64,000 nt of DNA from Tricholoma matsutake (taxonomy: Eukaryota; Basidiomycota; Agaricomycetes; Agaricales; Tricholomataceae), in contig AP026538.1 in NCBI GenBank assembly GCA_026075535.2, positions 11,718,001 to 11,782,000 on the forward strand, read 5' to 3'. The position numbers and the translations under genes are program-made. Under the pieces are notes generated by a model. It was given only the letters and a program-made list of their open reading frames with translations. It was not told where the DNA came from and searched no databases. Shown here in pieces: positions 4,629-45,410 of the stretch. Position 1 is the first letter of the stretch. Each line of letters starts with the position of its first letter.

Positions 4629-4633
4629 CCAGG

Positions 4634-5035
4634 TGTTAGGGCGACACCCACTATCTGCTAGCTAAGACCATGCAGGTTCTCTCTACAAGAAGGGGGCAGG
4701 ATCCATGCTCGTGATGGGGGAACTGACGGTTTTGATGCAAGGGGTTATTAATAGGTGAGTTTGTTGAGATAGGCCTTTCACACCAAAAATGTAGGTGGAA
4801 TACCTAAGAGAACACAACTGAGGTCCCCTAGGCATATATTTAGGGTTTATATACTATGTTACATATATTGTACATTGTTGTTACCAATGCACTCATACAT
4901 GCACATCCATATTGATGCATGCGAAATAAAATTCTCATGCTATCAAAGTGTAGCATCATTTGGCGTCATGTAGCATAATTCGACATAATAAAATAAAAAT
5001 GAAATTTTATTAGGTAATGGGGTGGTTTCCTAACA
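4634..5035 (-). repeat. 3' LTR of chromovirus A
   Basis: 402 bp, plus-strand termini TGTTA...TAACA. It pairs with the LTR at 11570-11971 and matches those at 29568, 36138 and 54026. In roughly the first 165 bp compared by eye with 11570, about 15 of 17 mismatches are transitions. A polypurine tract (minus strand AAAAGGGGGGTAA, near 5036-5048) abuts its inner end. Confidence 0.95.
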
Positions 5036-5046
5036 TTACCCCCCTT

Positions 5047-5589
5047 TTATGCCTCGACTTCCAGGCAAGAAAATATTGTGTCTGTCCCCTCTGTGAAATT
5101 TTGGTAAGGCCAGAATCTCATCCCCTCATACACCATTCTCGCAATGCGACGCAGAGCATTTGGATTATGTTTAAAGAATTGGGTGATTGCGTTGCATGCT
5201 CGCTTACAATTCTCTTTGGGCTCCCACAAATTATTTTTGTTGGTATAGTTTTTCCACTTTATTAAGAACTCCAATTTGTTCCATCGAAGTCGTGAGTCTA
5301 AAATTTCTTCAACTACATATTCTGGAGCACCTTCTACTATTATTGGAGGTTGTGGAGTAGTTTATTGGCCAGGAATAGTGGGTGGGCGGTAAGGGCATAG
5401 GAGGGATACATTAATCTCGGGATCAATCTTGAATGATCGGGGTAATTTTAGCACTACCACATTAGGTGAGATCACTTTAGAGATTGCATATAGGCCAACT
5501 TGTTTCTCCGTGAGTTTCCTCGAAGGTTGTGGAATATTCAGGTCCTTGGTACTTAGCCACACCAAGTCACCAACTTTGTACTCTGGAGC
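5047..5589 (-). pseudogene. Integrase C-terminus and chromodomain, chromovirus A
   Basis: This is the 3' end of pol. The frame near 5565-5362 carries the integrase C-terminal region (VWLSTKDLNIP..., INVSLLCPYRPP). The frame 5274-5047 carries a chromodomain with the hallmark LIKWKNY and WEPKENC motifs, then a tail ending LEVEA and a stop beside the polypurine tract. In fungal chromoviruses this module guides integration to modified chromatin. It is separated from the rest of integrase by the nested solo LTR at 5594-6758. One stop lies between the two open stretches. The intact counterpart in B is at 35580-36126. Confidence 0.9.
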
Positions 5590-5593
5590 GCGC

Positions 5594-6758
5594 TGATAGG
5601 TCGTCTCCTTGGCTCAAGGACCGATTCACCACTTTAGCATCATTCTAATCACATGGGCTAACTCCTATGACATCCCAGATGCAGCACAACCCAGTCTATC
5701 AATCATGATATCATATCGACTGCGTCGAAACATCACCAGCGACATCAATCATATCAAGAGCCCACATTGCACAACCTTAGGACTACCCCGAAAGTCCCTA
5801 AGATCCCCCTACACAACCATCGAACATCCCTGATCAACTTCGAACAGCCACAACCGCGATCAAGCATTGTCGACCATTGTCGAGCATCATCGATCAATAT
5901 CAAGAAACTACGAGCGACATTGGGTGCCACCTTCATTATCTAAATGGTGGAAGACCATGCACTAGGATGTATTCCAACTCGTGCTCAACCCTGCTGATCA
6001 TAGGTCAGCCTCGTGCCAAGTCCCTATCGCACACAGAACCCGCGGGATGCATTATTGCAAGACTTAGCGCAGTTTATACACAAAGGACAGTCTCTTTTAG
6101 TCCTTTCCTTTTATTACTCTTTCATCATATGATATATATCTTTCTTGTTTGGATTCCAGTCTCCTTTATGGCCTTGTGCCTTAACTCATATCTTTTGCCT
6201 CATGTTCTACACATGTTTCTCATTCCATTTTAGGAAGTTTCTTTAAAACATATAAAACTCTGTAGTATCTACTTGGAAATAACAAGAAATCATCTTCACA
6301 TATCGTCTCGTATACAGTTTTAAGCATCCAATCAACTTTCTAAAAACAATCTAAGTCTATGGGTTTTCTCGATTGATGAGAAACCTCTGCAATTGTCACA
6401 TCCTCAATCCTCCCTCGATCCTCTCGTCATTAGCTCTAGTAACCCTTCCAACACTTCATAGCCATTTGCCACACCCTTCGTATACTATTGACCTATCAAA
6501 AGGTCCCCAGAATTCACATATCGACCATCGATGATAAACTCATTCACTGTTGATCTCGTCAATCGATACTCGATCGGACTGCGCGGAATGCCTTCGTCTC
6601 TCATAACACTACCTTCACAACTAGTACCAACAGGTCATATTTCCATTGGTTGGGCCACAAACATTTGGAACAACTTGCAACCTTCCTCTGACTCGTCGCA
6701 AATATCATCAATTGCCTCATCGGCAGTTTAGGTGGTTTTCCTGGGTTGAGTATTATCA
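5594..6758 (+). repeat. Solo LTR, gypsy family E (copy b)
   Basis: 1165 bp, termini TGATAGG...TATCA, inserted in the integrase region of chromovirus A opposite to A's transcription. Flanks are GCGC (5590-5593) and GCAT (6759-6762). Aligning the empty site with B (near 35580) gives the same length, with differences only at CpG positions, so a 4-bp GCGC TSD with CpG decay is inferred. Confidence 0.9.
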
Positions 6759-6762
6759 GCAT

Positions 6763-7791
6763 GCTCGAGTACGATCTGCGTGTTGCATCATGTCATCACA
6801 TGCTTTCTTCAATGCTGCCTCTGCTTCCTCTTGTACCTTTTGCATCTTAGATACAAAGTCTTCTACCAACTGTACTTTGACTTCCCTTCTGGGTTCTACT
6901 CCCATGCGAGGATGCTATCCATAATGTGCGAAAAAGGGTGACATACGAGTAGCCGAATGGAATTTGTTATTGTGGGAAAATTCAGCAATTGCCAGCCATT
7001 CGGGCCAGTTGGTTTGTTGGTAGTTGACAAACATACGTAGGTACTGCTCCAACTCTCTATGTCTGCCCATCAGTCTGCAGGTGATATGCTGTAGATAATT
7101 TAGCATGAATCCCCAATATGTTGTTCAGTTCTCACATAAATGCGGAAGCAAATTGTGGTCCACGATCAGAGATAACAGTATCGGGTAACCCATGTAACTG
7201 CTATACCTGATTTAGATAGAGGCACGCCAAGCCCAATGATGAGGTTTCTGTAGTAGTAGGAATAATATGGACCTCCTTTGTGAAGCGGTCACATACTATG
7301 AATATTGCATCGTACCCTTGAGCTTTGGGTAATCCAGTAATAAGATCCACAGATATATCTCACCACGGTGCTTTAGGTATAGGGTTTGGCATTAATTTTC
7401 CTGCAGGTTTCTCTGGAAATTTCTTCCCCCTCATGCACATATCACATCTATCCACATACCCCAACACATACTTTGAAATTCCGGGCCACCAATAATTTCT
7501 CATTACTAATTCCAATGTCTTCCATCTTCCTGGGTGTCTGGCAGTCAGCATATTATGATGTAACTGGACGATCTCCCTTTGCAAATACTGATCCTTCGGT
7601 ACATACACTTTTCCTCGAAACAACACCAACCCTTGTTCCTCAGCCCATTCATCTCCTCTAATATTACCTTTCTTCTCTCCCTTCAGAGCTTTCACGGCTT
7701 CCACTACTTCATTGTCCATTTCTGAACATTGTCTAATTTTAGACAACATTTCCATTTCCGAGCTATCTATTAATAGATGCCCTTGACACAT
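6763..7791 (-). pseudogene. Integrase core, chromovirus A
   Basis: The frame 7791-7360 carries the end of the RNase H linker and the zinc-binding HHCC region (QLHHNMLTARHPG, CDMCMRGKK). The catalytic core follows across 7360-6915, with PDTVISDRGPQF near 7195-7150 and the block around 7106-6915 ([13 protein letters not shown]). A stop and frame changes break it near 7360 and 7110. By comparison with B the D,D,E residues are expected in the broken part, but I do not claim all are intact. The distal portion beyond 6763 lies on the other side of the solo LTR. Confidence 0.85.
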
Positions 7792-7838
7792 AGTGCCAAT
7801 GCAAAAGTTGAGTAAGGTAACATTTTTATTGTCCTCCT

Positions 7839-8327
7839 CTACCCCCTTTTATGATCAATACGTCTGGATAATGCATCTGCTTTCCTCATTAAGCTTCCCA
7901 CTTTGTGGACCAAGTGAAAATTGAAACACAATAGGAATAGTGCCCAATGTGCTTGCCAGCGATTAAGCTTTGTAGCGGACATGAAGTATTGCAGATTTTG
8001 ATGATCCATCCAGATCTCAATCTGATGTGTACATCCCTCCAAATAATGCCTCCATGCCTCCAACACTCATATTATTCCCAACATCTCTTTGTCATGTACA
8101 TCATAATTCCTCTCTACATCATTCAACCCTCAGGACAAATATGCACAAGGATGCCATTTGTCATCTTTGCACAGCATTGATAATACCTCTCCAGTAGCAA
8201 AGTCGGATGCATCAGATTCCACTCGTAAAGGGCGTGTGAAATCCACTGGGGCTAATATTGGTCCCTCTACAAACTTCCTTTTCAACTCCTCAAACGCTGT
8301 CTGCTGCTGCTCTCCCCACCTCCACAC
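7839..8327 (-). pseudogene. RNase H domain, chromovirus A
   Basis: The frame 8327-8130 holds VESDASDFATGEVLS, the first acidic block of Ty3-type RNase H. The frame 8066-7839 holds EIWMDHQNLQYF and the ADALSR motif at the end of the domain. A frame break lies near 8120. It corresponds to 33994-34480 in B. The enzyme would remove the RNA strand during reverse transcription. Confidence 0.9.
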
Positions 8328-8336
8328 TACTCCCTT

Positions 8337-9155
8337 TCACATAAGGTTATGTAAGGGTGTGGCAATTTTAGAAAAATTGTGCACAAAGCGACAATAGTAA
8401 TTTGTGAGTCCCAAGAAGGCTTGAACCTCCTTGACACGGGTGGGTGCAGGCCAATCTGTGATTGCCTGTACCTTGATTAGATCCATTTTGATCCCGTCAG
8501 GGCTGATCAATAATCCTAGGAACTCGATCTCGCTTGCCCCAAACACACACTTCTCCGGTTTTAAAAATAGATCATTCTCTGCCAACCTCCATAACACCTC
8601 CTGCACTATTGCCTCATGATTCTCTTCATCCTCCGTAAATATCAGAATGTCATCAATAAATAATATTACCATGCCTTTGTCTATGACATTGTTGAAAATG
8701 TTATTCATCATATTTTGAAAGGTTGGGGGACTATTAGTCATCCCAAAAAACATGACAAGCGGCTTGAAGGATCCTCGATGCATGGCAAATACAGCCTTCC
8801 ACTCATCTCCTTTCTTTATTCATACATTATTGTATCCCCATCATAAATCCAATTTTGTAAAGACTTTGGCTTTTCCCACCTTGTCAATTATTTCTGAGAT
8901 CAATGGCAGGGGGTATGCATTCTTCACTGTCCACTCATTCAGGTACCTATAATCTGTACACATCCTCTTCCTTTGGTCTTTCTTTGGCACAAAGAATATT
9001 GGTGATGTCTGCAGTGATTTCGAAGGTCGTATGTATCCTTTGCACAATTGCTCCTTCAGGAATGCATCCACTTCTTCTTGTTCCATTGGAGATAATGGAT
9101 ATACCTTCGACTTTTTTGGCACAAACCCTGGCTTCATCTCGATCCTGGCTTCCAC
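8337..9155 (-). pseudogene. Reverse transcriptase, chromovirus A
   Basis: The frame 9155-8841 has [23 protein letters not shown] and VFTKLDL (first catalytic Asp). The frame 8783-8337 has FGMTNSPPTFQNMM and the catalytic FIDDILIF. The two are out of register near 8830. Upstream near 9140, a short deletion relative to B (about 10 bp) shifts the protease-RT frame. The YxDD-type box is intact here, unlike in B (FIDN). Confidence 0.92.
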
Positions 9156-10009
9156 ACTGGCATTCGCTCAGACTCCTTCTTCTGGAACACTGACAGATAT
9201 TCATGATACACTTTTGGCACCCACTCCTCCACCGGCTTCTCCACCTTCATGATATTCTTGTCCCATGACTGTCCTCCACAAATTGCTCTAAAGGTTTGCT
9301 TCTGCTCTTCTTTCTCAAGCATGAGTGGAACTTCCCCATTTGGCATTTCCTCATCCTCCACTTCCTCCATAGTAACAGAATACTTCCTTGGATGTTCTGT
9401 CTCTCTCTTTTTCCTTTTTTCCTTCTTCATCATCCTTCCATACACATTACATTCTTTAGGACAACAAGTCATTTGTACTTTCCCAGTTTTCCAATCAATT
9501 TCAGGATTATGCTTCCATAACCATGGACATCCTATTATTAGATTGGTTTTCCCACAATCGCACACTTCAAATACAGCTTGCTCCTGATGCTCCTGATACC
9601 TTAGTACCATAGTCACCTCCTCCTTGATAGTTCCTCCATGATTGACTGTTCTGTCAATAGTGTACACCATTATAGGTTGCGCCAGCTTGCATGTGTTAAT
9701 ACTGTTTCTGGTAATTAAGGACTGATTAATGAATAATCCTGTAGCACCACTATCAAGCAATGCTTCCACATCAATCGCTGCATGCATGTCCACTGTCTTC
9801 AGTCCCACAGTCAAGGTGATTTTGGGTTCTATTTGCACAGAGCGAATAAAGAATTTAGGGGTTTTTGGAAATAGTGCTCGGCAATTTTCTTGGTCATGTG
9901 ATTTCCAACAGTTGTACTCCTCCTTGATTTCCTTTTCTGATTTACTCTGAGTTTCCTTGGATACTAATACATTGTAACGATTCTGGGTCACCAATGGGGA
10001 AACCTTCAC
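9134..10009 (-). pseudogene. Aspartic protease and linker, chromovirus A
   Basis: A 291-residue open frame. The retropepsin motif LLDSGATGLF is near residue 84, with the second conserved region IIGCPWLWKHNPEIDW near residue 165. It is followed by a very acidic/basic linker (KKEKRKKRE, EEVEDEEM) leading to RT. It starts with KVSPLVTQN and lies in the -1 frame relative to the end of gag, which it overlaps. It ends after the frameshifting deletion near 9140. Confidence 0.92.
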
Positions 10010-10019
10010 TGGGAACCTT

Positions 10020-11091
10020 CCAGAAAATTCTTCTGCCTGCCTTCCTCCGGCTTCACTTCCTCAATTGTAGCTTCCCTAATCTTTCTTTTCTGCCTACAAT
10101 TCCTGGAAATATGTCCTAACTGCCCACAGTTAAAACATTTAAGTGGGGCTCATCTCCCTGCTTGATCAACCTCCATTGCCTCTGCTGGTGCTACTGACTC
10201 TGTAGCCATAGGTGTCACTGCCATGGCCAGTGGCTGTGCCCTCGGAGCTTGTACCTGAGGCGCCTTTCCTTTCTCGGACTTTCCTCCAGATGACTTTCCA
10301 AATTTACTACTTCTGTACATCAACTTTGACTCTGCCTGTTCCTGCTGATATTGCCGATCAAGGCGCATTGCCCAATTATACCACTCGTCCAATTTCTCTG
10401 GCATAGAAGGTAGTCGGTAGATAGACTTGAATAAAGAGGGATTTAATCCTGCTTTCAAAAATTCTACCAACACGGCTTCTCCCATATCCATTTGCAAAGC
10501 TTCTGCCTTGAACTACAAAATAAATTCATCCGCTGTTAGGGAACCTTGGCGCATGGTCTTTAATTTAGCATTGGCTGTCGCCTTTGGATTAGGGTCTCCA
10601 AACTGTGCCTCCAATCTCTCCAAAAATTCCTTGAAGCTTGCAAATGGTTTATTTCCCACGGCAATCTGATTAATAGCCTCGTTTCTCCAGAACTGTGCTT
10701 TCCCCCCCTGAATATATGAGAGAGCAAACATAATCCTAGACTCAGCTGTATGAAACTCTGGCTTCCTCCCATGGATGTAAAATACTATAGAGCTGATGAA
10801 GGATTTTGTATTCTCCATGGTACTGTCAAAGATTTGCGGGGGCGCGTACTTAGGTAAGCGCACTTTTCCATTTCCAGATTTCTCCACTGTCTCATCCTCC
10901 TGCAATATCCACTCCACCTCATCATCTCTTTCTCCTATCGTCTCTGGCTGTACTTCTGCTTGTCTGGGCTGTGATGCTGCCAATACTGGCACTAACTGCA
11001 ACATTTGTGCTGTAAGCGCATCAATTTTTGCCTCTAGCACTGGGGTGGGAACAGGATTAGGACCAGGATTAGAAGTTGAAGGTTTGGACAT
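10020..11091 (-). pseudogene. Gag, chromovirus A
   Basis: It starts with MSKPSTSNPGPNP at 11091, with a Pro/Ala-rich N-terminus. The conserved Ty3-type gag core follows (KSFISSIVFYIHGRK, EFLERLEAQFGDPN, LVEFLKAGLNPSLF) to 10150. A TGA (AGA-TGA-GCC) then comes just before the CCHC zinc knuckle CFNCGQLGHISRNC (about 10137-10096). An additional stop lies near 10510. The TGA before the knuckle is present at the same place in B, so it predates their divergence or is read through. Gag would form the particle and bind RNA. Confidence 0.9.
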
Positions 11092-11556
11092 AATTGTAGA
11101 ATCTGTGATGAATCACTTCTTCGACAATTCAAAAAAAAAAAATTTCAAGACCTCTCCAAACGTCTACGGGTCACGTGATATGGTTCGTCAATCATTTGTC
11201 GTTCGTCGGGCGCCTAATTTGACACTTCGGATCAACAACTCTCCCAACAGTGCCTGATCTCGGAGATATCACTGAATTTGGCTTGTAACTAAAATAGTCA
11301 TCCAAATAGAGTAATGTAAATCATAACTAAACCAGATCCAATCGGTTGTCTGGTTGCAGCTGTCCTAATGACGAGTGCTGCCTCTCGATCACTGGTGGTT
11401 GCAATGTAAGGCGAGGCCTGGCATCGGCTTACAAAAGAAAAGGTAGATTACATATATACAAGTACTTCCAGCTCGTGCCAAAAGGGTGAGTAATCAGATG
11501 TGGCACGGTGAAACAATGATGTATGTGCAAGTAAGAGAAGGTGCACTGATATGGGA

Positions 11557-11567
11557 AGTTGTGTTCT
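11557..11567 (-). other. Putative self-priming site, chromovirus A
   Basis: Two nucleotides from the 5' LTR end, the element reads AGAACACAACT (minus strand). This is the reverse complement of AGTTGTGTTCT at 11745-11755 in the LTR, about 34 bp downstream of the TATA-like box. This is the Tf1-type geometry in which the RNA 5' end primes reverse transcription. It is inferred from sequence only. Confidence 0.65.
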
Positions 11568-11569
11568 TC

Positions 11570-11971
11570 TGTTAGGGTGACACCCACTATCTGCTAGCTA
11601 AGACCATGCGGGTTCTCTCCACAAGAAGGGGGTGGGATCTGCGCTCATGATGGGGGAATTGATGGTTTTGATGCGAGGGGTTATTAATAGGTGAGTTTGT
11701 TGACAAAGGCCTTTCACACCAAAAGCATAGGTGGAATACCTAAGAGAACACAACTGGGGTCTCCTAGGTGTATATTTAAGGTTTATATACTATGTTACAT
11801 ATATTGTACATTGTTGTTACCGACGTGCTCATACATGCGTGTACATATTGATGTGTGTGAAATAAAATTCTCACGCTATCAAAGTGTAGTGCCATTTGGC
11901 ATCATGTAGCATAATTCGACATAATAAAATAAAAATGAAATTTTATTAGGTAATGGGGTGGTTTCCTAACA
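11570..11971 (-). repeat. 5' LTR of chromovirus A
   Basis: 402 bp with plus-strand termini TGTTA...TAACA. It contains a TATATAAA-type box (minus strand, near 11775-11790) and the putative RNA start segment AGTTGTGTTCT at 11745-11755. The outer flank CCTGC (11972-11976) does not match the other flank of A but is the reverse complement of the 3' flank of B. Confidence 0.95.
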
Positions 11972-12804
11972 CCTGCTTCCTCACTGCTTTCAATTCCTCA
12001 ATTGTACTTCCATCCATACCGCTGCCTTTTGAGGTACAATACTCTTTAGTGTGCCAGGGACATTTACAGTTGCTGCAGATTGTATTCCCAGAAGGCTTGG
12101 CCAATTTGGAGGTTGCAGCTAGAGCAAGGGAAGGGGAAGTATCGGCACATCGGTCATTGTCCTGGAGAGACTGTTCACCAGACTGTTCACTTTCCAGAAA
12201 AAGGCAAATATTCTTGGATGTGTATGGTGCAGACGGCATGGATGTAGCAATGTCACAGGAAATAATGGAACATGCATGAGGAAAATGTGAACTGAGGGAA
12301 TTCAAAGTGCGATACAGCATAAGAGGTCAGAGGTAATATCTCCCATAGCAAATGCACCCTCAATAAGCATGCAGATCCATTCAGCCATTTTGGGGAGGGG
12401 TGTATTCAGTGTGCACTGGATAGCAAGTGCTTGCTGTAATAAAGTGACTTGCCTAACTGGTCCTTCCTTCTGATGATGGTTCCGCAGGGTCTCCCAGTTT
12501 GTCTTCACAGATTTCAAAGAATCTAAGAAAGAGTGTTCATATGATGCTACCCTGGAGGCAATGAAAGCATATGCAAGGTGGGAATTAGCCTTCCAATTAG
12601 ATAGAGCACGGGGTTCATTAGAGGTGGGCTCTGGTACTTCACCAGTGACATATTCGAAAAGTCCATTGAGGGACAAGTGATGCTGATATCCTCCTTCCAT
12701 TCTTTGTAGTTGGATTTAAGTTTATCGAGCTTGTCCCCAGAGTATTGAGTGGAAAGCCATATAAGGGAAATGGATGGGGGGTGAGGTTCGGTGAGTGCAG
12801 TCAT
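11972..12804 (-). pseudogene. Copia gag, 5' part (cut by chromovirus insertion and inversion)
   Basis: Gag of a Ty1/copia element, starting with MTALTEPHP at 12804. The N-terminal half has the UBN2-like gag pattern (KLKSNYKEWKEDI, YEHSFLDSLKSVKTNWETL, QALAIQCTLNTPLPKM). A frame change lies near 12675. A CCHC knuckle CSNCKCPWHTKEYC is encoded near 12090-12045. The frame runs to the edge of the chromovirus LTR with ...AVRKQ, and continues in frame at 36545 as AYDKQ when the 5-bp GCAGG is counted once. The segment is therefore half of a gene interrupted by chromovirus B and then separated by the inversion. Confidence 0.88.
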
Positions 12805-13008
12805 TTTGGGAAGCAAAAAAAGGCAAAAACAAGAGGGTAGGTGAGAGGGAGGTTTGACTCAAGCAGGGCACAAAGGGATCTAACATGCACGGTATGATGC
12901 ATGCTGATAAGATATTGATCGAACAATTGATTGAAGAAACATGCAACAAGGCACAGAGCAGTCGAGTGGCTAGGCAAGATATCTATCATCACCACACATG
13001 ACAGAAGT

Positions 13009-13019
13009 GGCCCATAACC
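13009..13019 (-). other. Copia-type primer binding site
   Basis: The minus strand reads GGTTATGGGCC directly next to the LTR end at 13020. This matches the well-known copia primer site, complementary to the anticodon region of initiator tRNA-Met (half-tRNA priming). It fixes the LTR boundary and the direction of the element. Confidence 0.85.
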
Positions 13020-13574
13020 TATAGAAATCCAACCTAGATAATACATGAATAAGCTCAGTCTATGTATCATGGACTATATATTCATACCTAGATAATACAC
13101 AAATAAGCTATAAATAGTACAGTAAGTAATCTGATCAAAGTGAGTGCTAGTGAATCTACTCACCTCAGTCTGTGTATAACAGACTGAGGTGTCTATGTCT
13201 ATCTGGTCAAATATATATATACCATGAGTATAACAATGGAAGAGATGATAAAGAGACTATTAGAAAGGAATATGGACAAGGGGAAATATGCATCATTTTG
13301 TATGCTATAATTAGCATGCCACATCAAAGGGTGTATTCATGGTGTAGATCTCAACAGTCCTTGGTATAAGTGACTGAGGTGTCTATACTACTATGTATGA
13401 TATATATATGTATCCTGTGAGACAAAGAAACTGTTCACAAAGGTGTGTGTGAATGTTCCCAAACACGAGCATCAAAGGGATGTGCTAATTATAGCATATG
13501 CATCAAAGTGATGTGTGCTAATTATAGCATACACATCAAAGTGATGCATTGAGCTCATGGTGTGATTCTCAACA
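13020..13574 (-). repeat. 5' LTR of copia element
   Basis: About 555 bp. On the minus strand it runs from TGTTGAGAATC (13574) to TTTCTATA next to the primer site. A partial copy lies at 52726-53074. It includes hairpins built on CTCAGTC...GACTGAG (for example 13164-13195) and short repeats with TAATTATAGCAT. The matching 3' LTR is not visible: the element is cut inside gag. Confidence 0.8.
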
Positions 13575-14272
13575 TCTTGATGTGTCAAGATGGCACTATA
13601 ATGATGCCATACACAGAGAACATTTTGACTCCAAACATTATCACTAAAACAAAAGTCAAAACTTAATTGCTGTCTCATATGGATCAAGTCGAGACCTCAG
13701 GCTTAACCTGGTACCAAGTCTGAGACAAGGTGTCATAAGTCATGGTGGCATTGTGGGCATTATGTTGTATAGTAAGTGAAGTTGTAAGTCTGAATGTGAT
13801 GATTACCTTTTTTGCTCAAAATCCGCGTGTCGGTTAAACCCACTGGATTTGAAATATGTAGTAGGCTGACTTCAAAATGTAAGCCCATCTCCACATCTCC
13901 CCACCAAAATTATAAACTCCGATTTCTGCCGAGGAGCTGCCTCACTTAAATTTTCATTTGGATTGTCCCGAGTCGTATCTTGGACTCGTAATCTCAGAGA
14001 ATTCAATGGGCAGGTATACCGTATAATCTAGAGTACCTGACAAAACTACTGCCACTGAATGCCAAGCCTGAGGGCAGAAGCAAGTCTTGAATTAACCATT
14101 TCTATACAGAATATTCAGGGTGAATATACCTTTATCGCCAACAGCCACTGGCAGATAGGAGCTGCTCTTTTTGACTACTTTTTAGGTTCTCAGACATCTC
14201 CTCCGTGACAGGTTTCCTTTTTTGTTTTTTTGTTTGTCTACCCAGACAAATGTTGAAATGAACACTAAACAC
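13575..14272. other. No gene recognised between copia LTR and MITE
   Basis: No coherent frame or known element boundary is seen. TGGTACCAAGTCTGAGAC-like sequence at 13709 was considered as a primer site but no LTR abuts it. Confidence 0.4.
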
Positions 14273-14668
14273 TAGGGTTGTTCACAGTAGCCATTCTTGG
14301 GCCATTTTCAGCTCATTTTCAAACTCATTTTCGGCTCATTTTTGTGTATTTGGCAGAGGAACAAACAAAAGGGAATGAAAAATGAAATGGAAAATGACAT
14401 GAAAAATGGTTACTGTGAACACCCTGGGAAGGAAATTTTAGAAAAATGGAGCAAAAATGCATTTTTCTCGCCAGGCACAGTGCCAAAAAGATGAAAAATG
14501 ATCATTTTTCGGTTCCCTTTTTACAAAAGCAAGGGTGGGGTTCCATTTTACATTCATTTTACATTCATTCTCAGTTCCATTCTTGAGAAAAATGGAATCA
14601 AAATGAAATAGAAAATGATTGAAAAATGAGTGAAAATGAACCAAAAATGCCAACCATGAACAACCCTA
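14273..14668. mobile_element. MITE J, copy 1 (hAT-like termini)
   Basis: Termini TAGGGTTGTTCA...GAACAACCCTA, AT-rich interior, no gene. A related shorter copy is at 40352-40494 in the copia RNase H gene. Flanking octamers CTAAACAC (14265-14272) and CTGAGTGC (14669-14676) differ only by transitions, consistent with a decayed 8-bp TSD of hAT type, but that is weak evidence. An internal right-end-like sequence (ACTGTGAACACCC near 14410-14425) suggests a composite or nested structure. Confidence 0.6.
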
Positions 14669-26389: not shown

Positions 26390-27690
26390 GGAAATCAACC
26401 ATTAAATCCCATTGGTGGATAAAAAAACTACCACTTACCTAAGTGTCCTGACTCGATGTGACAACCTCTTGCTGATAAGATCGAGAGGTATTGTCAGGCA
26501 GGATGGTGGAGACCAGTGTGCATGGAGCAAGCTGCTCCAATGCTGGTGGTCCCCAAGAAAAATGGGGACATCTGTACTGTGGTGAATGCAAAAAAGAGGA
26601 ATGACAATACCATCAAGAATGTGATGCCTTTCCCTGATCAGGACTTGATCAGGCTGGATGTAGCTCAAGCAAAGTATTGTTTGAAAATCAACTTATCCAA
26701 TGCTTATGAGCAGATTCTGGTCAAACCTGGGGATGTCTGGAAAACAGTGTTCACGACGGTACTGGGCACTTTTGAGAGCCTGGTGATGCAGCAGGGCGAT
26801 TGCAATGCCCCAGCTACTTTCCAACAATTGATGAACTCCATCTTCAGGGAGTACATCAGATGGTTCATGCATGCTTATCTCAACAATATCTTTGTGTTTA
26901 GCAACTCAGTCGTTGAACATCAACACCACCTGCAGCTCGTGTTCAATAAACTACAAGAGCACGAACTGTACCTTCATGTGGATAAATGTGAACTACATGC
27001 TGAGAAACTTGGATGTCTCGGCCATATGATAGATGACAAGGGCCTCCACGCTGACAGCAATAAAATGGCGAGGATACAAGAATGGAAGGTGCCTCAAAAC
27101 TATCATGAGGTTCAACAGTTCTTGGGACTAGTTCAGTACCTAGCCCACTTCCTTCCTAATATTTTGGCATACACCAGTCCACTCTCTGCTATGATGAAGA
27201 ATGGACAATCATTCCATTGGTGTCCTCTGCACGATAGCTGTTTCCAGACTATCAAAGACATCTGTTGCTCAACCCCAGTTCTAAAACCCATCAATGCCAG
27301 CTCAGAGGAGCCGATCTGGGTGATTTGTGATGCTTTTGTATTCAGGGTTGGGGCCATGTATGGGCAGGGCCCTGAATGGCAGAGCTGTAGACCAGCCGGA
27401 TTCCTATCCAAAAAGTTCTTGGATGCTCAAAGGAACTATAGGACCTTTGAGCATGAAACCATTGCGATCCTTGAGGCGCTTCTTAAGTGGGAAGATAAGC
27501 TAATAGGTCAGTGACTTCATGTGGTGACAGATCACAAGGCCTTGGAGTTTTTCCAGACCCAGCATCAATTATCAGCCCATCAGTCCCAGTGGATGGAATA
27601 CCTCTCGTGCTTCGACTTTGACATATAATATGTCAAAGGGAACCTCAACAAGGTCGCAGATGCCCTGTCCCGGTATTACCAGTTTAATAA
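26390..27690 (+). pseudogene. Reverse transcriptase-RNase H, gypsy C1, catalytic Asp lost
   Basis: The 332-residue frame 26516-27514 spans the RT core (MLVVPKKNGDI, CLKINLSNAYEQ, CNAPATFQQLMN, HAYLNNIFVFS, FLGLVQYL) and the start of RNase H (VICDAFVF). RNase H continues to DHKALEFFQ and ADALSRYYQ by 27690 past a TGA at 27512. The usual DLSDAYEQ is NLSNAYEQ and the usual YLDD is YLNN, so the acidic active-site positions are Asn (GAC/GAT to AAC/AAT). The enzyme is dead by sequence even where its frame is open. Confidence 0.9.
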
Positions 27691-27999
27691 CTGGGAAGAC
27701 ACACCCCTGGTGCAACATTATGTGTTTGCTGATGTACATCTTGATCCTATGCACGAGGACTTGCCCTGGGATTGTCATTTGGAAATTAGGAATTGAGTCA
27801 TTGAGACATGATTCGCCAAGGCCCAGGTCCATCGAGCAGAAGAGCACCTGAGAGCCTTGCATGAGTGGGTTGAGGATCGAGAACTGGCTGCAGTGGTGCT
27901 CGCTGGTGTGCAGGATGAGAATGGAATGGGAGATCCTAAAGAGTCTTGAGGGGAAGACCCCACAGTATATGAATCACTGGCCAAACACCAGGATTTGAA

Positions 28000-28886
28000 G
28001 GTGTCCTTGTAAGAACAAGACCCAATGGATGAGGACATCCGATGGGGATATAAGGAGGACAAGGTATTTGGCAAAGTCCTGGATAACCCAGAAGATCACC
28101 CCCTTTGAGGTGATTGACAGTATAATATGGATGAAGAACAAGGGAGGAGAACATGTTGTGTGCACTCCCTCGGCGCCCTCCAAGGACATGACTTTACATG
28201 GCTGTATCATCGACCAAGCCCACTCGATCGTCAGGCACTTTGGCCTAGCAAAGACCTCTGAGTATGCTAGGCAATGGTATTGGTGGCCTTGCCTCCAATA
28301 TGAAGTGGATAAGTTCTGCAAATCCTGTGAGGCCTGTGTTCAGTCCAAGGGGGAGTATTGCTCCCCCATGGGTAAGTTACATTTGTTGCCCACCCCGATC
28401 CGTCCTTGGGAATCCATAGGGATGGACTTTATTGGTCCATTCCCTGAGTTGGAAGGGTTTAATTACCTATGGGTGGTGATATGCCGATTGTCATCTATGG
28501 TGCACCTGGTTCCCATAATGATCACCACCACCACCTCTGAGTTGTCGTCTCTTTTCATCAAAGAGATAGTTAGGCTGCATGGGTTGCCTGGATCCATTGT
28601 TTCTGACTGGGATTCCAAGTTCACCTCCTGCTCATGGTGGGAGGTCCACCAAGTCTTGAATGTAAAGTTACAGATGTCCACCTCCTTCCATCCTCAGATG
28701 GACAGTGCTACTGAGCGAGCCAATCAATCAATCACTCAGATCTTACGGTCTTTTGTGGCTTCCAACCAGAAAGACTGGGTCAAATTCCTGGCATTGGTGG
28801 AGTTTGCTATCAACTCCACCATCAATTGGGCTACTGGGATGGCTCCATTTGAAGTAACCTATGGGTATCTTCCTCGCATGATGTGA
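28000..28886 (+). pseudogene. Integrase, gypsy C1
   Basis: Open frame 28029-28886. The zinc-binding part has QAHSIVRHFG and CKSCEACVQ. The catalytic D,D,E core appears intact: GMDFIG, SDWDSKF, and the Glu of SATERANQ. The C-terminus is interrupted by a TGA at 28884, then continues in another frame. A stop precedes it near 28018. It would insert the element and make the 5-bp CAACC duplication. Confidence 0.9.
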
Positions 28887-28907
28887 GAAATACCTACTCC
28901 AGAGCAA

Positions 28908-29523
28908 GTGCCACCTGGAGTATGGACCTTTGCAATGGATGCATTATGCAACATGGCAATTGCTCACAACAATATTATCGCTGAGTGTGTGTTCCAATGG
29001 TTCCATGCTAACAAATGGCATGGAAAGGAGCCTGACATCAGACCAGGAGAGAAAGTATACCTTTCTACCAAGAACCTGACATTGCCCAAGGGGAGGGCCA
29101 GTAAGCTCCTTCCCCAAGTTCATAGGACCATATGAGGTCCTGTGAAGCTACCCAGATACTTCCAATTATGATCTGGACTTACCTTCCGAGCTCCAGAGTC
29201 AGCGGATACACAGCAGATTCCATGTGAACCTGCTACATCCCCATTATGAGAACGATGACGCCCTGTTTCTCAACAGAAGGCACCTGGATCCTTATGACTT
29301 CAGCACCCATGATGACGCTGAATGGTGGGTTGAGGAGATCACATCCCATTGTTGGAAGGGTTGTGCATTGGAATTGGAAGTGAAGTGGAGCATGGGCAAG
29401 TCCACTTGGGAACTGCTGGCCATGTGCAATGAGTTGGCTGCCCTGGACACTTACTTGGCCCTTGTGGGTGCCAAGGAGTGGATGGATCTGCCCAAGCATG
29501 CACCAGCATGCAAAGGGCAATAG
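28908..29523 (+). pseudogene. Integrase C-terminus and chromo-like region, gypsy C1
   Basis: Frame 28908-29135 carries a post-integrase block (KWHGKEPDIRPGEKVYLSTKNL). Frame 29224-29523 carries VNLLHPHY, then a chromo-like segment (EWWVEEI, LEVKWSMGKSTWELL, LAALDTYLALVG) and a tail to a TAG. Past 29523 the element continues to 29567 and, before the inversion, into 4628 and below. Confidence 0.8.
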
Positions 29524-29567
29524 AACTTCTTGACTTGGTCGAGAAGGCCAGGCAGCTGTGGGCCTGG

Positions 29568-29969
29568 TGTTAGGAAACCACCCCATTACCTAATAAAATT
29601 TCATTTTTATGTTATTATGTTGAATTATGCTACATGACACCAAATGATGCTACACTTTGATAGCATGAGAATTTTATTTCGCATGCATCAATATGTACAC
29701 ACATATATGAGTGCATCGGTAACAACAATGTACAATATATTTAACATAGTATATAAACCCTAAATATATGCCTAGGGGACCTCAGTTGTGTTCTCTTAGG
29801 TATTCCACCTACATTTTTGGTGTGAAAGGCCTATCTCAACAAACTCACCTATTAATAACCCCTCGCATCAAAACCATCAGTTCCCCCATCACAAGCGCAG
29901 ATCCTGCCCCCTTCTTGTAGAGAGAACCTGCATGGTCTTAGCTAGCAGATAGTGGGTGTCGCCCTAACA
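29568..29969 (+). repeat. 5' LTR of chromovirus B
   Basis: 402 bp, TGTTA...TAACA. TATATAAA box at 29750-29757. Putative RNA start AGTTGTGTTCT at 29784-29794. Confidence 0.95.
29750..29757 (+). promoter_or_regulatory. TATA box in LTR of chromovirus B
   Basis: TATATAAA lies 34 bp upstream of the segment complementary to the primer site, placing the expected RNA start at or near AGTTGTGTTCT. The same layout is present in copies A and D. Confidence 0.6.
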
Positions 29970-29971
29970 GA

Positions 29972-29982
29972 AGAACACAACT
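29972..29982 (+). other. Putative self-priming site, chromovirus B
   Basis: AGAACACAACT begins 3 nt after the LTR end and is the exact reverse complement of 11 nt (29784-29794) at the predicted RNA 5' end. In Tf1-type elements the RNA 5' end folds onto such a site, is cleaved and primes reverse transcription. No tRNA match was recognised at this position. Confidence 0.7.
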
Positions 29983-30456
29983 TCCCATATCAGTGCGCCT
30001 TCTCTTACTTGCACATACGTCATTGTTTCACCGCGCCACATCTGATTACTCATCCTTTCGGCACAAGCCAGAAGTACTTGTATATATGTAATCTACCTTT
30101 TCTTTCATAAGCTGATGCCAGGCCTCACCTTACATTGTGACTGCCAGTGATCGAGAGGCAGCACTCATCATTAGGACAGCTGCAACCAGACAACCAATTG
30201 GATCTGGTTTTGTTACGATTTACATCACTCTATTCAGACGACTATTTTAGTTACAAGCCAAATTCAGTGTTATCTCCAAGATCAGGCACTGTTGGAAGGG
30301 TTATTGATCCGAAGTGTCAAATTAGGGGCCCGACGAACGATGAACGATCGATGAATGATTGCCGAACCATCACATGACCCATAAATGTTTGGAGAGGGCT
30401 CAAAAAAAAAAATCTTGAATTTGTTGATGAAGTGATTCATCACAGATTTTACCATT

Positions 30457-31553
30457 ATGTCCAAACCTTCAACTTCTAATCCCGGCCCTAATCCTGTTCC
30501 CACACCAGCACTAGAGGCAAAAATTGATGTGCTCACAGCACAAATGTCACAATTAGTGTCAGTCTTGGCAGCATCACAACCCAGACAAGCAGAAGTACAG
30601 CCAGAGATGACAGTAGAAAGAGATGATGAGATGGAGGAGATGGTGGAGTGGATGTCGCAGGAGATGAGATGGTGGATAAATCCGGAAATGGAAAAGTGCG
30701 CTTACCTAAGTATGTGTCCCCGCAAATCTTTAATGGTACCATGGAGAATACAAAATCCTTCATCAGCTCTATAGTATTGTACATCCATGGGAGGAAGCCA
30801 GAGTTTCATACAGCTGAGTCTAGGATTATGATTGCTCTCTCATACATTCAGGGGGGGAAAGCACAGTTCTGGAGAAATGAGGCTATTAATCAAATTGCCA
30901 TGGGAAATAAACCCTTTGCAACCTTCAAGGAATTTCTGGAGAGATTGGAGGCACAGTTTGGAGACCCTAATCCAAAGGCGACAGCCAATGCTAAATTAAA
31001 GACCATGCGCCAAGGTTCCCTGACGGTGGATGAATTTATTTTGCAGTTCAAAGCAGAAGCTTTGCAAACAGACATGGGAGAAGCTGTGTTGGTAGAGTTT
31101 TTGCAAGCAGGATTAAATCCCTCTTTATTCAAGTCTATCTACCAACTACCTTCTATGCCAGAGAAGTTGGACGAGTGGTATAATTGGGCAATGCGCCTTG
31201 ACCGGCAATATCGGCAGGAACAGGCGGAGTCAAAGTTGATGTACAGAAATAGTAAATTTGGAAAGCCATCAGGAGGAAAGTCCGAGAAAGGAAAGGCGCC
31301 TCAGGCACAAACTCCGAGGGCACAGCCACCAGCCATGACAGTGACACGTATGGCTACAGAGTCAGTAGCACCAGCAGAGGCAATGGAGGTTGATCAAGCA
31401 GGGAGATGAGCCCCACTTAAATGTTTTAACTGTGGGCAGTTAGGACATATTTCCAGGAATTGTAGGCAGAAAAGAAAGATTAGGGAAGCTACAATTGAGG
31501 AAGTGAAGCCGGAGGAAGGCAAGCAGAAGAATTTTGTGGAAGAGTCCCAGTGA
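30457..31553 (+). pseudogene. Gag, chromovirus B
   Basis: It starts MSKPSTSNPGPNP. Compared with A and D, a 1-bp deletion near 30662 (QED to QEM register) shifts the frame, which resumes in 30648-31409 with the gag core (SFISSIVLYIHGRK, EFLERLEAQFGDP, VEFLQAGLNPSLF). A TGA at 31407-31409 precedes the CCHC knuckle CFNCGQLGHISRNC (31424-31465). The knuckle frame ends at TGA 31551-31553, overlapping the protease frame, which is in the -1 register. Confidence 0.92.
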
Positions 31554-32340
31554 AGGTTTCCCCATTGGTGACACAGAATCATTACAATGTATTAGTATCC
31601 AAGGAAACCCAGAGCAAATCAGAAAAGGAAGTTGAGGAGGAGTACAACTGTTGCAAATCACGTGACAAAGAAAATCGACATGCACCATTTCCGAAAATGC
31701 CTAAATTCTTTATTTGCTCTGCACAAATAGAACCTGAAATTACCTTGACTATGGGACTGAAGACAGTGGACATGCATGCAGCCATTGATGTGGAAGCGTT
31801 GCTTGATAGTGGTGCTACAGGACTATTTATCAATCGGTCCTTAATTACTGGAAACAGTATTAACACACACAAGCTGGCGCAACCCATAATGGTGTACAAT
31901 ATTGATGGAACAGTACATTGTGGAGGAACTATTGAGGAGGAGGTGACTATGGTCCTAAAATATCAGGAGCATCAGGAGCGAGCCGTATTCAAAGTATGTG
32001 ATCTTGGGAAAACCAATCTAATAATAGGATGTCTGTGATTACGGAAGCATAATCCCAAAATTGATTGGAAAACTGGGAAAGTACAAATGACTCGTTGTCC
32101 TAAGGAATGCAATGTGTATGGAAGGAAGATAAAAAAAGAAAAAAGGAAAAAGAAAGAGAAAGAACATCCGAGGAAGTATTCTGTTACGATGGAGGAAGTG
32201 GAGGATGAGGAAATGCCAAATGGGGAAGTTCCAATCATGATCGAGAAAGAAGAGCAGAAGCAAACCTTTAGAGCAATTCGTGGAAGACAGTCATGGGACA
32301 AGAATATTATGAAGGTGGAGAAGCCAGTGGAGGAATAGGT
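31520..32340 (+). pseudogene. Aspartic protease and linker, chromovirus B
   Basis: Frame 31550-32038 begins VSPLVTQNHYN and holds LLDSGATGLFIN. Where A has CPWLWKHNP, B has a TGA (TGG to TGA-type change at 32036-32038) and resumes at 32041. It is followed by the charged linker (KKEKRKKKEKE, EEVEDEEMPN) to 32338, ending at TAG. The next stretch 32341-32540 leads into RT. Confidence 0.9.
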
Positions 32341-32399
32341 GCCAAAGGTGTATCATGAATATCTGTCAGTGTTCCAGAAGAAGGAGTCTGACTGAATGC

Positions 32400-33990
32400 C
32401 GGTGCGGAAGCCATGGGATCATGCAATTGAGATGAAGCCAGGGTTTGTGCTGAAGAAGTCGAAGGTATATCCATTATCTCCGATGGAACAAGAAGAAGTG
32501 GATGCATTCCTGAAGGAGCAATTGCGCAAAGGATACATATGACCTTCAAAATTGCTGCAGACGTCACCAATATTCTTCGTGCCAAAGAAAGACCAAAGAA
32601 AGAGGATGTGTACAGATTATAGGTATCTGAATGAGTGGACAGTGAAGAATGCATACCCCCTGCCATTGATCTCAGAAATAATTGACAAGGTGGGAAATGC
32701 CAAGGTCTTTACAAAATTGGATTTACGATGGGGATACAACAATGTGCAAATAAAGAAAGGAGATGAGTGGAAGGCTGCATTTGCCACGTGTCAAGGATCC
32801 TTCGAGCCGCTTGTCATGTTTTTTGGGATGACTAATAGTGTTAAGGGCGAAGCCTCAACCACTCAATCTAGTCATTGTTGTTCGACGAGGTGCTTCCTTG
32901 ACGAGTCGTTCGGCACTAGTCTTACTCGGAGCATCCGACATAAGATAGGTAGTGCACTCTAGCAGGGCTTCTGCATAGAGTCGTTCAGGTTCACGCACTA
33001 AGGGGCTTCCTTAGTGGTTTCGAGTAAGTTTGCGAGTTGCAAGCTAAGGCTGTTGATTGCCTAGATCTAAACTAAGGACATCCCTACTACAAGTTGCAGT
33101 ACTTATACTAGAAGGGAGGTCCTTATCATCCAATCGGAAAGGTAGATGTGTATCAATGTAATAATAGAAACAATAGGCCTCATGCCTTGCATGAGGCATC
33201 CGATGTCACAGAGTGCTGCAGCGCAGCATGTCAGGGAACAATAAGAGATAAGCCTCATGCCTAGCATGAGGCATCTGATGTCACGGATCCGATGTCAAGG
33301 ACATGCTGCAGCACAGCATGTCGATCGTGAGAGTCCGATGTCACGGACCTCGTGTCAAGGGGGCTGTCATATCACAGCATGTGTGGGAGTGGGTTTGGGT
33401 GCATGGAGTCACCATGCATCAAGGGTGCCTTCCACGGGAAGGGGATCAAATGCATGCAGTCAGCATGCGTCGTGTGTGTGTCTGATGTCAAGGATATGCC
33501 CTAGGCATGAATCAAGAGGTGCCTCCTGTCTGGAGGGGATCATCGGGTGCATCGGGTTCCATGAGTTACAAGGAAAATTGTAACAAATAGTCCCCCGACC
33601 TTTAAAAATATGATGAACAACATTTTCAACGATGTCATAGACAAAGGCATGGTAATAATATTTATTGACAACATTCTGATATTTACGGAGGATGAAGAGA
33701 ATCATGAGGCAATAGTGCAGGAGGTGTTACGGAGGTTGGCAGAGAATGATCTATTTTTAAAACCGGAGAAGTGTGTGTTTGGGGCAAGCGAGATCGAGTT
33801 CCTAGGATTATTGATCAGCCCTGACGGGATCAAAATGGATCTAATCAAGGTACAGGCAATCACAGATTGGCCTGCACCCACCTGTGTCAAGGAGGTTCAA
33901 GCCTTCTTGGGACTCACAAATTACTATTGTCGCTTTGTGCACAATTTTTCTAAAATTGCCGCACCCTTACATAACCTTACGTGAAAGGGA
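32400..33990 (+). pseudogene. Reverse transcriptase, chromovirus B, split by solo LTR
   Basis: N-terminal half 32400-32838: AIEMKPGFV, a TGA where A has Arg (GYIRPS), [28 protein letters not shown]. After the 747-bp solo LTR and 5-bp duplication (33586-33590) the frame resumes at 33591 with the PPTF-equivalent region, the active-site box FIDNILIF (A has FIDD), and the thumb region to 33984. The Asp-to-Asn change in the box is GAC to AAC. RNase H follows after a TGA near 33982. Confidence 0.92.
32839..33585 (+). repeat. Solo LTR G inside reverse transcriptase of B
   Basis: 747 bp, termini TGTTA...TAACA, perfect 5-bp TSD AATAG (32834-32838 and 33586-33590). Removing it and one TSD restores the RT frame. 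The interior has repeated GCATGAGGCAT, GATGTCA and CTGCAGC(G/A)CAGCATG units between 33180 and 33400. No other copy is in the window. Orientation is arbitrary because no internal region is present. Confidence 0.95.
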
Positions 33991-33993
33991 GTA

Positions 33994-34490
33994 GTGTGGA
34001 GGTGGGGAGAGCAGCAGCAGACAGCATTTGAGGAGTTGAAAAGGAAGTTTGTAGAGGGGCCAATATTAGCCCCAGTGGATTTCACACACCCTTTACCAGT
34101 GGAATCCGATGCGTCCGACTTTGCTACTGGAGCGGTATTATCAATGCTGTGCAAAGATGACAAATGGCATCCTTGTGCATATTTGTCCCAAGGGTTGAAT
34201 GATGTAGAGAGGAATTATGATGTACATGACAAAGAGAAGTTGGGAATAATACGAGCATTGGAGGCATGGAGGCATTATTTGGAGGGATGTACGCATCAGA
34301 TTGAGATCTGGATGGATCATCAAAATCTGCAATACTTCATGTCCGCTAAAAAGCTTAATCGCAGGCAAGCGCATTGGGCACTATTCCTATCACGCTTCAA
34401 TTATCACTTAGTTCACAAGGCGGGAAGCTGAATGAGGAAAGCAGATGCATTATCCAGATGTATTGATCATAAAAGGGGGGTGGAGGAGGA
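33994..34490 (+). pseudogene. RNase H, chromovirus B
   Basis: Frame 33994-34431: VESDASDFATGAVLS, the Glu-containing CAYLSQGLNDVERNY, EIWMDHQNLQYF, then a TGA at 34429, and ADALSRCIDHKRG to about 34490. More intact than in A. Confidence 0.92.
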
Positions 34491-34499
34491 CAATAAGAA

Positions 34500-35640
34500 T
34501 GTTACCTTGCTCAAACCCGAGTACTTTTGCATTTGCACTATGCATCAAGGGCATCTATTAATAGATAGCTCGGAAACAGAAATGTTGTCTAAAATTAGAC
34601 AATGTTCAGAAATGGACAATGAAGTAGTGGAAGCCGTGAAAGCTCTGAAGGGAGAGAAGAAAGGTAATATTAGAGGAGATGAATGGGCTGAGGAACAAGG
34701 GTTGGTGTTGTTTTGAGGAAAAGTGTATGTACCGAAGGATCAGGATTTGTGAAGGGAGATCATCCAGTTACATCATCATATGCTGACTGCCAGACACCCA
34801 GGAAGATGGAAGACATTGGAATTAGTAATGAGAAATTATTGGTGGCCCGGAATTTCAAAGTATGTGTTGGGGTATGTGGATGGATGTGATACGTGCATGA
34901 GGGGGAAGAAATCTCCAGAGAAACCTGCAGGAAAATTAATGCCAAACCCTATACCTAAAGCACTGTGGTGAGATATATCTGTGGATTTTATTACTGGATT
35001 ACCCAAAGCTCAAGGGTACGATGCAATATTCATAGTATGTGACTGCTTCACAAAGGAGGTCCATATTATTCCTACTACTACAGAAACCTCATCATTGGGC
35101 TTGGTGCGCCTCTATCTAAATCAGGTATGGCGGTTACATGGGTTACCTGATACTGTTATCTCCGATCGCGGACCACAATTCGCTTCCGCGTTTATGTGAG
35201 AACTGAACAACATATTGGGGATTCAAACTAAATTATCTATGGCATATCACCCACAGACTGATGGGCAGACAGAGATAATGAATCAGGAGTTGGAGCAGTA
35301 CCTACATATGTTTGTCAACTACCAACAAACTGACTGGCCCGAATGGCTGGCAATTGCCAAATTTTCCCACAATAACAAATTCCATTCAGCTACTCGTATG
35401 TCACCCTTTTTCGCGAATTATGGACATCATCCTCGCATGGGAGTAGAACCCAGAAAGGAAGTCAAAGTACAGTTGGTAGAAGACTTTGTATCTAAGATGC
35501 AAAAGGTACAAGAGGAAGCAGAGGCGGCATTGAAGAAAGCATATGATGACATGACGCAACACGCAGATTGTACTCGAGTGCATGCTCCAGAGTACAAAGT
35601 TGGTGACTTGGTATGGCTAAGTACCAAGGACCTAAATATT
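34500..35640 (+). pseudogene. Integrase, chromovirus B
   Basis: Zinc-binding region: HHHMLTARHPGR (34770-34805) and CDTCMRGKK. Catalytic core: VDFITGLPKAQG (34981), VISDRGPQFASAF (35155), and HPQTDGQTEIMNQE (35250-35290). These give D, D and E, with residues visible in 34981-35290. Stops at 34714, 34750 and 35197 interrupt it. Frame 35215-36126 then runs to the chromodomain. Confidence 0.93.
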
Positions 35641-36126
35641 CCACGACCTTTGAGGAAACTTACGGAGAAACAAGTTGGCCCATACGTGATCTCTAAAGTG
35701 ATCTCACCTAATGCAGTAGTACTAAAATTACCCCAATCATTCAAGATTGATCCCGAGATTAATGTATCCCACCTACGCCCTTACTGCCCACCCACTATTC
35801 CTGGCCAACAAACTACTCTGCAACCTCCGATAATAGTAGAAGGTGCTGCAGAATACGTAGTTAAAGAAATTCTAGACTCACATCTTCGACGGAACAGATT
35901 GGAGTTCTTAATAAAGTGGAAAAACTATACCAACAAAAATAATCTGTGGGAACCCAAAGAGAATTGTAAGCGAACGCATAATGCAATCGCCCAATTCTTT
36001 AAGCATAATCCAAATGCTCCGCGTTGCATTGCGAGAATGGTGTATGAGGGGATGAAATTCCGGCCTTACCAAAATTTCACAGAGGGGACAAACATAATAT
36101 TTTCTTGCCTGGAAGTCGAGGCATAA
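35641..36126 (+). pseudogene. Integrase C-terminus and chromodomain, chromovirus B
   Basis: Continuous with the 303-residue frame from 35215. GPYVISKVISPN and INVSHLRPYCPP form the post-core region. The chromodomain follows with FLIKWKNY, NLWEPKENC and AIAQFFKHNP, then a tail ending SCLEVEA and TAA. Domain type and position are standard for fungal chromoviruses. Confidence 0.95.
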
Positions 36127-36137
36127 AAGGGGGGTAA
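36124..36137 (+). other. Polypurine tract, chromovirus B
   Basis: AAAAGGGGGGTAA lies directly before the 3' LTR start TGTTAGG at 36138; the same tract is at the equivalent place in A. Confidence 0.8.
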
Positions 36138-36539
36138 TGTTAGGAAACCACCCCATTACCTAATAAAATTTCATTTTTATTCTATTATGTCGAATTACGC
36201 TACATGATGCCAAATGATGCTACACTTTGATAGCATGAGAATTTTATTTCACATGCATCAATATGTACATGCATGTATGAGCACATTGGTAACAACAATG
36301 TACAGTATATGTAACATAGTATATAAACCTTAAATATACACCTAGGAGACCCCAGTTGTGTTCTCTTAGGTATTCCACCTATGCTTTTGGTGTGAAAGGC
36401 CTTTGTCAACAAACTCACCTCTTAATAACCCCTCGCATCAAAACCATCAATTTCCCCATCACAAGTGTGGATCCCACCCCCTTCTTGTAGAGAGAACCCA
36501 CACAGTCTTAGCTAGCAGATAGTGGGTGTTGCCCTAACA
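36138..36539 (+). repeat. 3' LTR of chromovirus B
   Basis: 402 bp, TGTTA...TAACA. The outer flank GCAGG at 36540-36544 is the original TSD of B, whose partner is now at 11972-11976 in reverse complement. Confidence 0.95.
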
Positions 36540-36704
36540 GCAGGCATACGACAAACAGATGTCCAATGCTGGAGCTCCCAAGTCTACCACAAAGGTCCCT
36601 GTTACCATGAAGGACAACACTGGTTGTGCATTCACTGTCATGATTGATTCTGCTGCTATGAACACAGCTGAGACAATTCTGGGAGAATTTGCTAGTCTGG
36701 CTTA
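36540..36704 (+). pseudogene. Copia gag continuation
   Basis: The frame beginning at the TSD reads AYDKQMSNAGAP and then CAFTVMIDSAAMN before the foldback element. It continues in frame the gag that ends at 11972 on the other strand. It probably covers the region between the zinc knuckle and protease. After the foldback only a few codons (YEAGLVSAYL) continue to a TAG, so the copia frame dies here. Confidence 0.75.
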
Positions 36705-37264: not shown

Positions 37265-37265
37265 T

Positions 37266-45409: not shown

Positions 45410-45410
45410 T

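Follow-up and report, generated by a model that had tools for sequence, protein, structure and literature searches.

Recombination between two inverted gypsy retrotransposons as the probable source of a small inversion in Tricholoma matsutake

Two inverted gypsy retrotransposons in the Tricholoma matsutake genome very probably recombined with one another by a non-allelic homologous crossover, inverting the DNA between them before the region was duplicated. They lie in a stretch of 64,000 nucleotides (contig AP026538.1, positions 11,718,001 to 11,782,000; hereafter the window, numbered from its first base). The two elements, A and B, have exchanged target-site duplications (TSDs) and long terminal repeats (LTRs), the elements into which they inserted are split, and the same state is found in a diverged duplicate of the region. 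We name the two ancestral gypsy elements E1, with TSD CCAGG, and E2, with TSD GCAGG. In the series of events that we propose, E1 and E2 would have inserted about 18 kb apart in opposite orientation, the target of E1 being an older gypsy element (D) and that of E2 the gag region of a copia element (H). Non-allelic crossing over between them would have inverted the DNA between the crossover points, leaving A and B as reciprocal chimeras with exchanged LTRs and TSDs; the rearranged region would later have given rise to an inverted copy on the same chromosome, at a distance of 1.9 Mb. The exchange was probably a single homologous crossover inside pol, in the interval discussed below.

Target-site duplications are exchanged between A and B

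The limits of A and B given in the initial annotation are right to the base, and its description of mismatched flanks held at all four sites: A is bordered by CCAGG and CCTGC, and B by CCTGG and GCAGG. Reverse-complementing the segment between the elements makes both pairs match (CCAGG/CCAGG and GCAGG/GCAGG); two such 5-bp matches have a chance probability of about 4^-10. The features concerned, with the state of each TSD the same in the duplicate, are:

4634-11971, minus: element A, chromovirus-type gypsy; chimera with its 3' part from ancestral E1 and its 5' part from ancestral E2
29568-36539, plus: element B, chromovirus-type gypsy; reciprocal chimera with its 5' part from E1 and its 3' part from E2
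11972-29567, no strand: inverted segment between the elements, 17,596 bp
4634-5035, minus: A 3' LTR, 402 nt; its sister is the B 5' LTR (17/402 differences)
11570-11971, minus: A 5' LTR, 402 nt; its sister is the B 3' LTR (25/402 differences)
29568-29969, plus: B 5' LTR, 402 nt; sister of the A 3' LTR
36138-36539, plus: B 3' LTR, 402 nt; sister of the A 5' LTR
4629-4633, plus: first copy of the E1 TSD, CCAGG
29563-29567, minus: second copy of the E1 TSD, CCTGG on the plus strand and CCAGG on the minus strand
11972-11976, minus: first copy of the E2 TSD, CCTGC on the plus strand and GCAGG on the minus strand
36540-36544, plus: second copy of the E2 TSD, GCAGG

As a control, we fetched the ends of four other copies of this gypsy family. 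Both LTRs were found in two of the four, and in these the TSDs match (ATGGG/ATGGG and ACCAG/ACCAG) and the copy's own LTRs have 12/402 and 17/402 differences; for the remaining two the guessed 5' end was missed, giving no result.

The LTRs of A and B start with TGTTAGG and end with CTAACA, so that both elements have the TG...CA termini and 5-bp TSDs of LTR retrotransposons. Seven open reading frames (ORFs) of the two elements were scanned with Pfam: Retrotrans_gag and Chromo scored above the curated cut-off in B, and RVT_1, RVP_2 and Integrase_H2C2 did so in A, while gag in A and protease in B were found only below it. Neither RNase H nor the integrase core (rve) was detected in these seven ORFs. 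Both copies are broken, but the label chromovirus is a fair one, because gag, protease, reverse transcriptase (RT), the integrase zinc domain and the chromodomain are each above cut-off in one copy.

A and B are homologous copies that bound the segment and face opposite ways, and 10 of 11 inverted repeat pairs lie between A and B, with 89-96% complementarity. Their alignment is collinear from LTR to LTR except for small gaps and one large insertion each, of 1171 columns in A and 752 columns in B.

Two inserts within the elements may be described here. In the RT region of B, 32839-33585 is a solo-LTR-like insertion (TGTTAAG...GTAACA, with a 5-bp duplication AATAG) that is present in the duplicate and missing both from A and from L033, the outside copy used below. 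In A, the insert at 5594-6761 has TGATAGG...TATCA ends; related inserts of about 1.1-1.2 kb lie at 619-1736 (in the 3' LTR of D), at 55158-56336 (in a third gypsy fragment) and at 63473-64000, where the match is cut by the end of the window.

LTRs pair between the elements, not within them

The LTRs point, independently of the TSDs, to the same two ancestral elements, E1 (CCAGG) and E2 (GCAGG). Within each element the LTRs are 90.5% identical (38/402 differences in A and likewise in B), while in crossed comparison identity is 95.8% between the A 3' and B 5' LTRs and 93.8% between the A 5' and B 3' LTRs. Among 23 informative columns, 18 support this crossed pairing (A 3' with B 5', A 5' with B 3'). 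A tree of nine LTRs, comprising the four of the window, the four of the duplicate and one further LTR, groups the A 3' and B 5' LTRs with their duplicates at 98/95; the A 5' and B 3' LTRs group with theirs at 85/86, which is weaker and below the star threshold of the tool. Together with an outside copy that switches sides along the elements (see below), the pairing of the LTR columns and the tree mark both copies as chimeric.

Paired in this way, the LTRs of E1 and E2 differ by 4.2% and 6.2% in the window and by 5.7% and 6.0% in the duplicate. Dating by LTRs is misled by such an exchange: the present LTRs of either A or B differ by 9.5%, about 1.5-2.2 times what the true pairs show in the window.

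Both target sites are continuous once the segment is turned back

We reconstructed the E1 empty site from the left flank of A and the reverse-complemented left flank of B, keeping a single TSD copy, and the E2 empty site from the reverse-complemented right flank of A followed by the right flank of B. In this and the other genome searches the best 40 candidate places were scored per query, so that the counts are not genome totals. The match to the E1 site runs across the join in 36 of the 40 places, the four exceptions being the split halves of the site itself, two from the window and two from the duplicate; for the E2 site it does so in 38 of 40, the exceptions being the upstream half in the window and in the duplicate. 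Six relatives were aligned to the window, three for each site. In the E1 relatives L007, L008 and L009 the flank matches overlap at the join by 5, 5 and 4 nt, as a TSD requires, and in the E2 relatives L001, L002 and L004 they overlap by 6 nt, which is the 5-nt TSD plus one further base that matches the LTR end as well. Other copies of both target elements are thus continuous in the uninverted order. The target elements are:

11972-13357, minus: upstream part of copia element H, the E2 target; gag with a zinc knuckle (motif read by eye)
36545-36702, plus: downstream continuation of H, whose frame continues from 11972 on the minus strand once the inserted element is removed
22095-29567, plus: 5' LTR and body of the older gypsy D, cut at 29567 by E1; 5' TSD CAACC at 22090-22094
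563-4633, minus: 3' remainder and 3' LTR of D; LTR at 563-1862, interrupted by an insertion; 3' TSD CAACC (minus strand) at 558-562

Across the rejoined E2 site a copia gag frame stays open between two motifs recognised by eye, the zinc knuckle and a protease-like stretch; an ORF of a relative matches Pfam Retrotran_gag_2 (2.1e-16). The 5' LTR of D (22095-22276, plus) would belong to the D body, judging from LTR likeness and the TSD; in that body RT, RNase H and the integrase zinc domain are above the Pfam cut-off and the capsid and integrase core below it. At present the LTRs of D face each other, and their orientation and CAACC TSD are coherent only after flipping: turning 11972-29567 together with the adjoining parts of A and B restores the order of D. 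Something was turned around here, because the LTRs of one element cannot otherwise face each other.

It could be supposed that nothing was inverted, and that the elements inserted in their present order, with gene conversion between LTRs and a coincidental decay of the TSDs producing the rest. The likeness of A and B in a middle tract (below) does allow for some exchange without crossover. Conversion cannot turn D and H, however, which are continuous only when flipped (in 36 and 38 of the 40 places scored for each, respectively), and the LTR orientation and TSD of D agree with the flip as well; we regard this explanation as having a negligible chance of being right.

Immediately beyond H, 36703-37266 is a near-perfect palindrome whose 266-nt arms are 98% complementary and separated by 32 nt; it is edged by TTA on either side and looks like a foldback or miniature inverted-repeat transposable element. 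Copia H in three compared relatives matches up to the edge of this palindrome and not past it.

A probable crossover in pol, coarsely mapped

The break was mapped with one outside copy, L033 (C2), as reference and with only those sites that are fixed between A/A' and B/B', the primes denoting the duplicate. From B position 468 to 2750, L033 agrees with A and B at 59 and 100 sites, respectively, and from 6500 to 6973 at 23 and 5. A maximum chi-square test for one break gave a value that 7 of 5000 permutations reached, and a single-break fit with L033 is locally best at two places, around B positions 2770 and 6420. The two features of interest are:

32337-35990, no strand: interval in B most likely to hold the crossover; coarse, B positions ~2770-6420
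33586-35317, no strand: middle tract of unusually high likeness between A and B (76 differences over 1710 columns); candidate for a conversion tract around the crossover

The initial annotation had described a 17.6-kb inversion. This is the length of the segment between the elements, but the stretch that was in fact inverted is longer and includes parts of both; with a crossover anywhere between B positions ~2770 and ~6420 it would measure about 23-30 kb.

The family was also searched with parts of B. With an RT query, A and its duplicate are the closest to B after B's own duplicate, at 96% against at most 94% for the others among 40 scored; with a gag query, A is 21st among the matches listed and its duplicate is not among them; and with a 3'-end query, A is not among the 41 matches listed. 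These ranks would fit a crossover in the central part of pol, possibly accompanied by a conversion tract. Outside the middle tract A and B differ by 7-9%. We also considered conversion of the middle tract itself, which the likeness from RT to integrase had suggested, but rejected it as a separate claim: the 4.4% difference there (76/1710) is within error of the LTR-pair mean of ~5.2%.

Since the crossover point has not been narrowed to a short interval, one may ask whether breakage followed by end joining, or replication-based repair, in or near the elements could have turned the segment with no homologous crossover. Truncated or duplicated pieces would then be expected; instead, A and B are collinear from LTR to LTR, the exchange is reciprocal, and neither target site shows loss beyond the 5-bp TSD. 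Such an origin appears highly improbable.

Homologous recombination between two inverted copies, as first proposed from the flanks, is therefore supported by the exchange of TSDs and of LTRs, by the continuity of the target sites and by the coherence of D when flipped. Several results nevertheless weigh against it. The crossover is only coarsely mapped: L033 takes no side in the middle bins (A:B agreement of 18:11 at 2750-4019, 22:22 at 4019-5750 and 19:22 at 5750-6500), and internal sites alone are not significant, with 337 of 3000 permutations reaching the observed value. This single reference may itself be a mosaic, no 5' LTR having been found in the stretch of it that was fetched. Of the informative LTR columns, 4/23 favour the third possible pairing and 1/23 the present, own-element one; recurrent transitions could be a source of these minority columns. 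Finally, the ancestral order was seen on no chromosome of this genome, the duplicate showing the derived order.

A diverged duplicate carries the same arrangement

The region has an inverted duplicate of at least 108 kb, 1.9 Mb away. Window coordinates -29,999 to +78,278 align with C1:9,790,001-9,905,696, inverted, in 12 pieces; at each end the alignment stops where the fetched sequence of one of the two regions runs out. In 105,630 aligned columns the two copies differ by 1.59% (1493 transitions, 185 transversions), and the duplicate has a net surplus of ~1.5 kb near window position 15,070 and of ~6.7 kb near 38.5-39.5 kb. In its own A and B, all four flanks and their order are the same as in the window, which means that the inversion predates the duplication, or the split of haplotypes if the copies are allelic: the duplicate is either a segmental duplication or the haplotype of the other nucleus joined into one contig. 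Its ends were not found with probes at 10.2 and 10.6 Mb, for which no mirror-image partner was present among the best 40 of 1751 and 1405 first-look candidates, respectively.

On this evidence the order of events would be D and H as the oldest elements, then both insertions (LTR pairs at 4.2-6.2%), then the inversion and then the duplication (1.59%).

The initial annotation had left the choice between a derived order and an assembly error of the same geometry. The former is borne out. For the latter, an assembler would have had to cross between the inverted elements with no real inversion behind it; such errors typically arise where long inverted repeats bound a segment, as they do here, and according to the assembly passages of PMC10211490 chromosome 1 of sample A was joined from three contigs. 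The same passages, however, give chromosome 1 of sample B as one contig and an N50 of 10-11 kb for the HiFi reads, which exceeds the 7.0-7.3 kb of the elements, and the 7-9% divergence of A and B outside the middle tract also stands against such a crossing. Moreover, the presence of the same four flanks and order in a duplicate that is diverged and has indels of its own makes a local, one-off assembly error unlikely. Taken together, an artefact is a very poor candidate.

Because an inversion of this kind leaves both inverted repeats in place, further flipping is conceivable, and the segment might still act as a reversible DNA switch bounded by retrotransposons, with opposite orientations between the nuclei of the dikaryon or between matsutake strains. 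We think this very unlikely: both copies of the region have the same orientation, and a search for exchange between A and B after the duplication gave no sign of it, with seven sites at which A equals B within a locus while the loci differ, against six of the mirror pattern.

Recent large duplications may be common on chromosome 1. A 1-kb probe elsewhere on it (L038, C1:13000001-13001000) recurs at 18.861 Mb (100%), 12.299 Mb (99%) and 13.245 Mb (97%) of C1, and a passage of PMC10211490 states that chromosome 1 alone has two GC (guanine-cytosine) peaks.

Content of the flipped segment and other repeats in the window

Of eight ORFs of at least 150 amino acids that were scanned in the flipped segment, three matched Pfam, all with retrotransposon domains, and no host gene was recognised; little functional effect of the inversion is therefore expected.

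Elsewhere in the window, 54026-55160 is a third copy of the A/B gypsy family, consisting of the 5' LTR and leader only and followed by an insert of ~1.2 kb. A tandem array at 46512-47362 has ~5.3 units of 160 bp (79% matches). A second inverted pair, 43835-44259 and 44987-45411, has arms of ~425 nt that are 93.7% alike and 0.7 kb apart; their length is near the 426 published for the marY1 LTR, a likeness of length only.

Comparison with known systems

The element marY1 of T. matsutake (AB028236) is described in passages of PMC10211490 and PMC10627285 as gypsy type, 6047 bp long, with a 426-bp LTR. Like A and B it is an abundant gypsy-type LTR element of this species, but its LTR length differs from their 402 bp; the comparison is one of descriptions only.

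For endogenous retroviruses and LTR elements, a strong divergence between the LTRs of one element, or a failure of LTRs to cluster according to element, has been taken as a mark of recombination between elements (PMC1779541, PMC2672092). The passages concerned deal with age estimates and annotation, whereas here both partners, their targets and the inverted segment are identified.

The closest parallel is Galileo, for which a passage of a 2009 study ascribes inversion 2z3 of Drosophila buzzatii to ectopic recombination between Galileo copies (PMC2775673). As with A and B, homologous copies in opposite orientation lie at both breakpoints with exchanged TSDs, the ends pair between copies and not within them, and both copies are chimeric. 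Galileo, however, belongs to the DNA transposons, and that study had sequences of uninverted chromosomes; here the elements are LTR retrotransposons of a basidiomycete, the inversion is small, and the derived state is seen in two diverged duplicates. Our literature search recognised no publication that describes the present locus. Its mechanism holds no surprise, the process being known from Galileo, and the matsutake locus is a further, well documented case of it. As a record of an inversion mediated by LTR retrotransposons in a mushroom it is unusually complete: the order of events can be read from its two targets, three TSD pairs and later duplicate.

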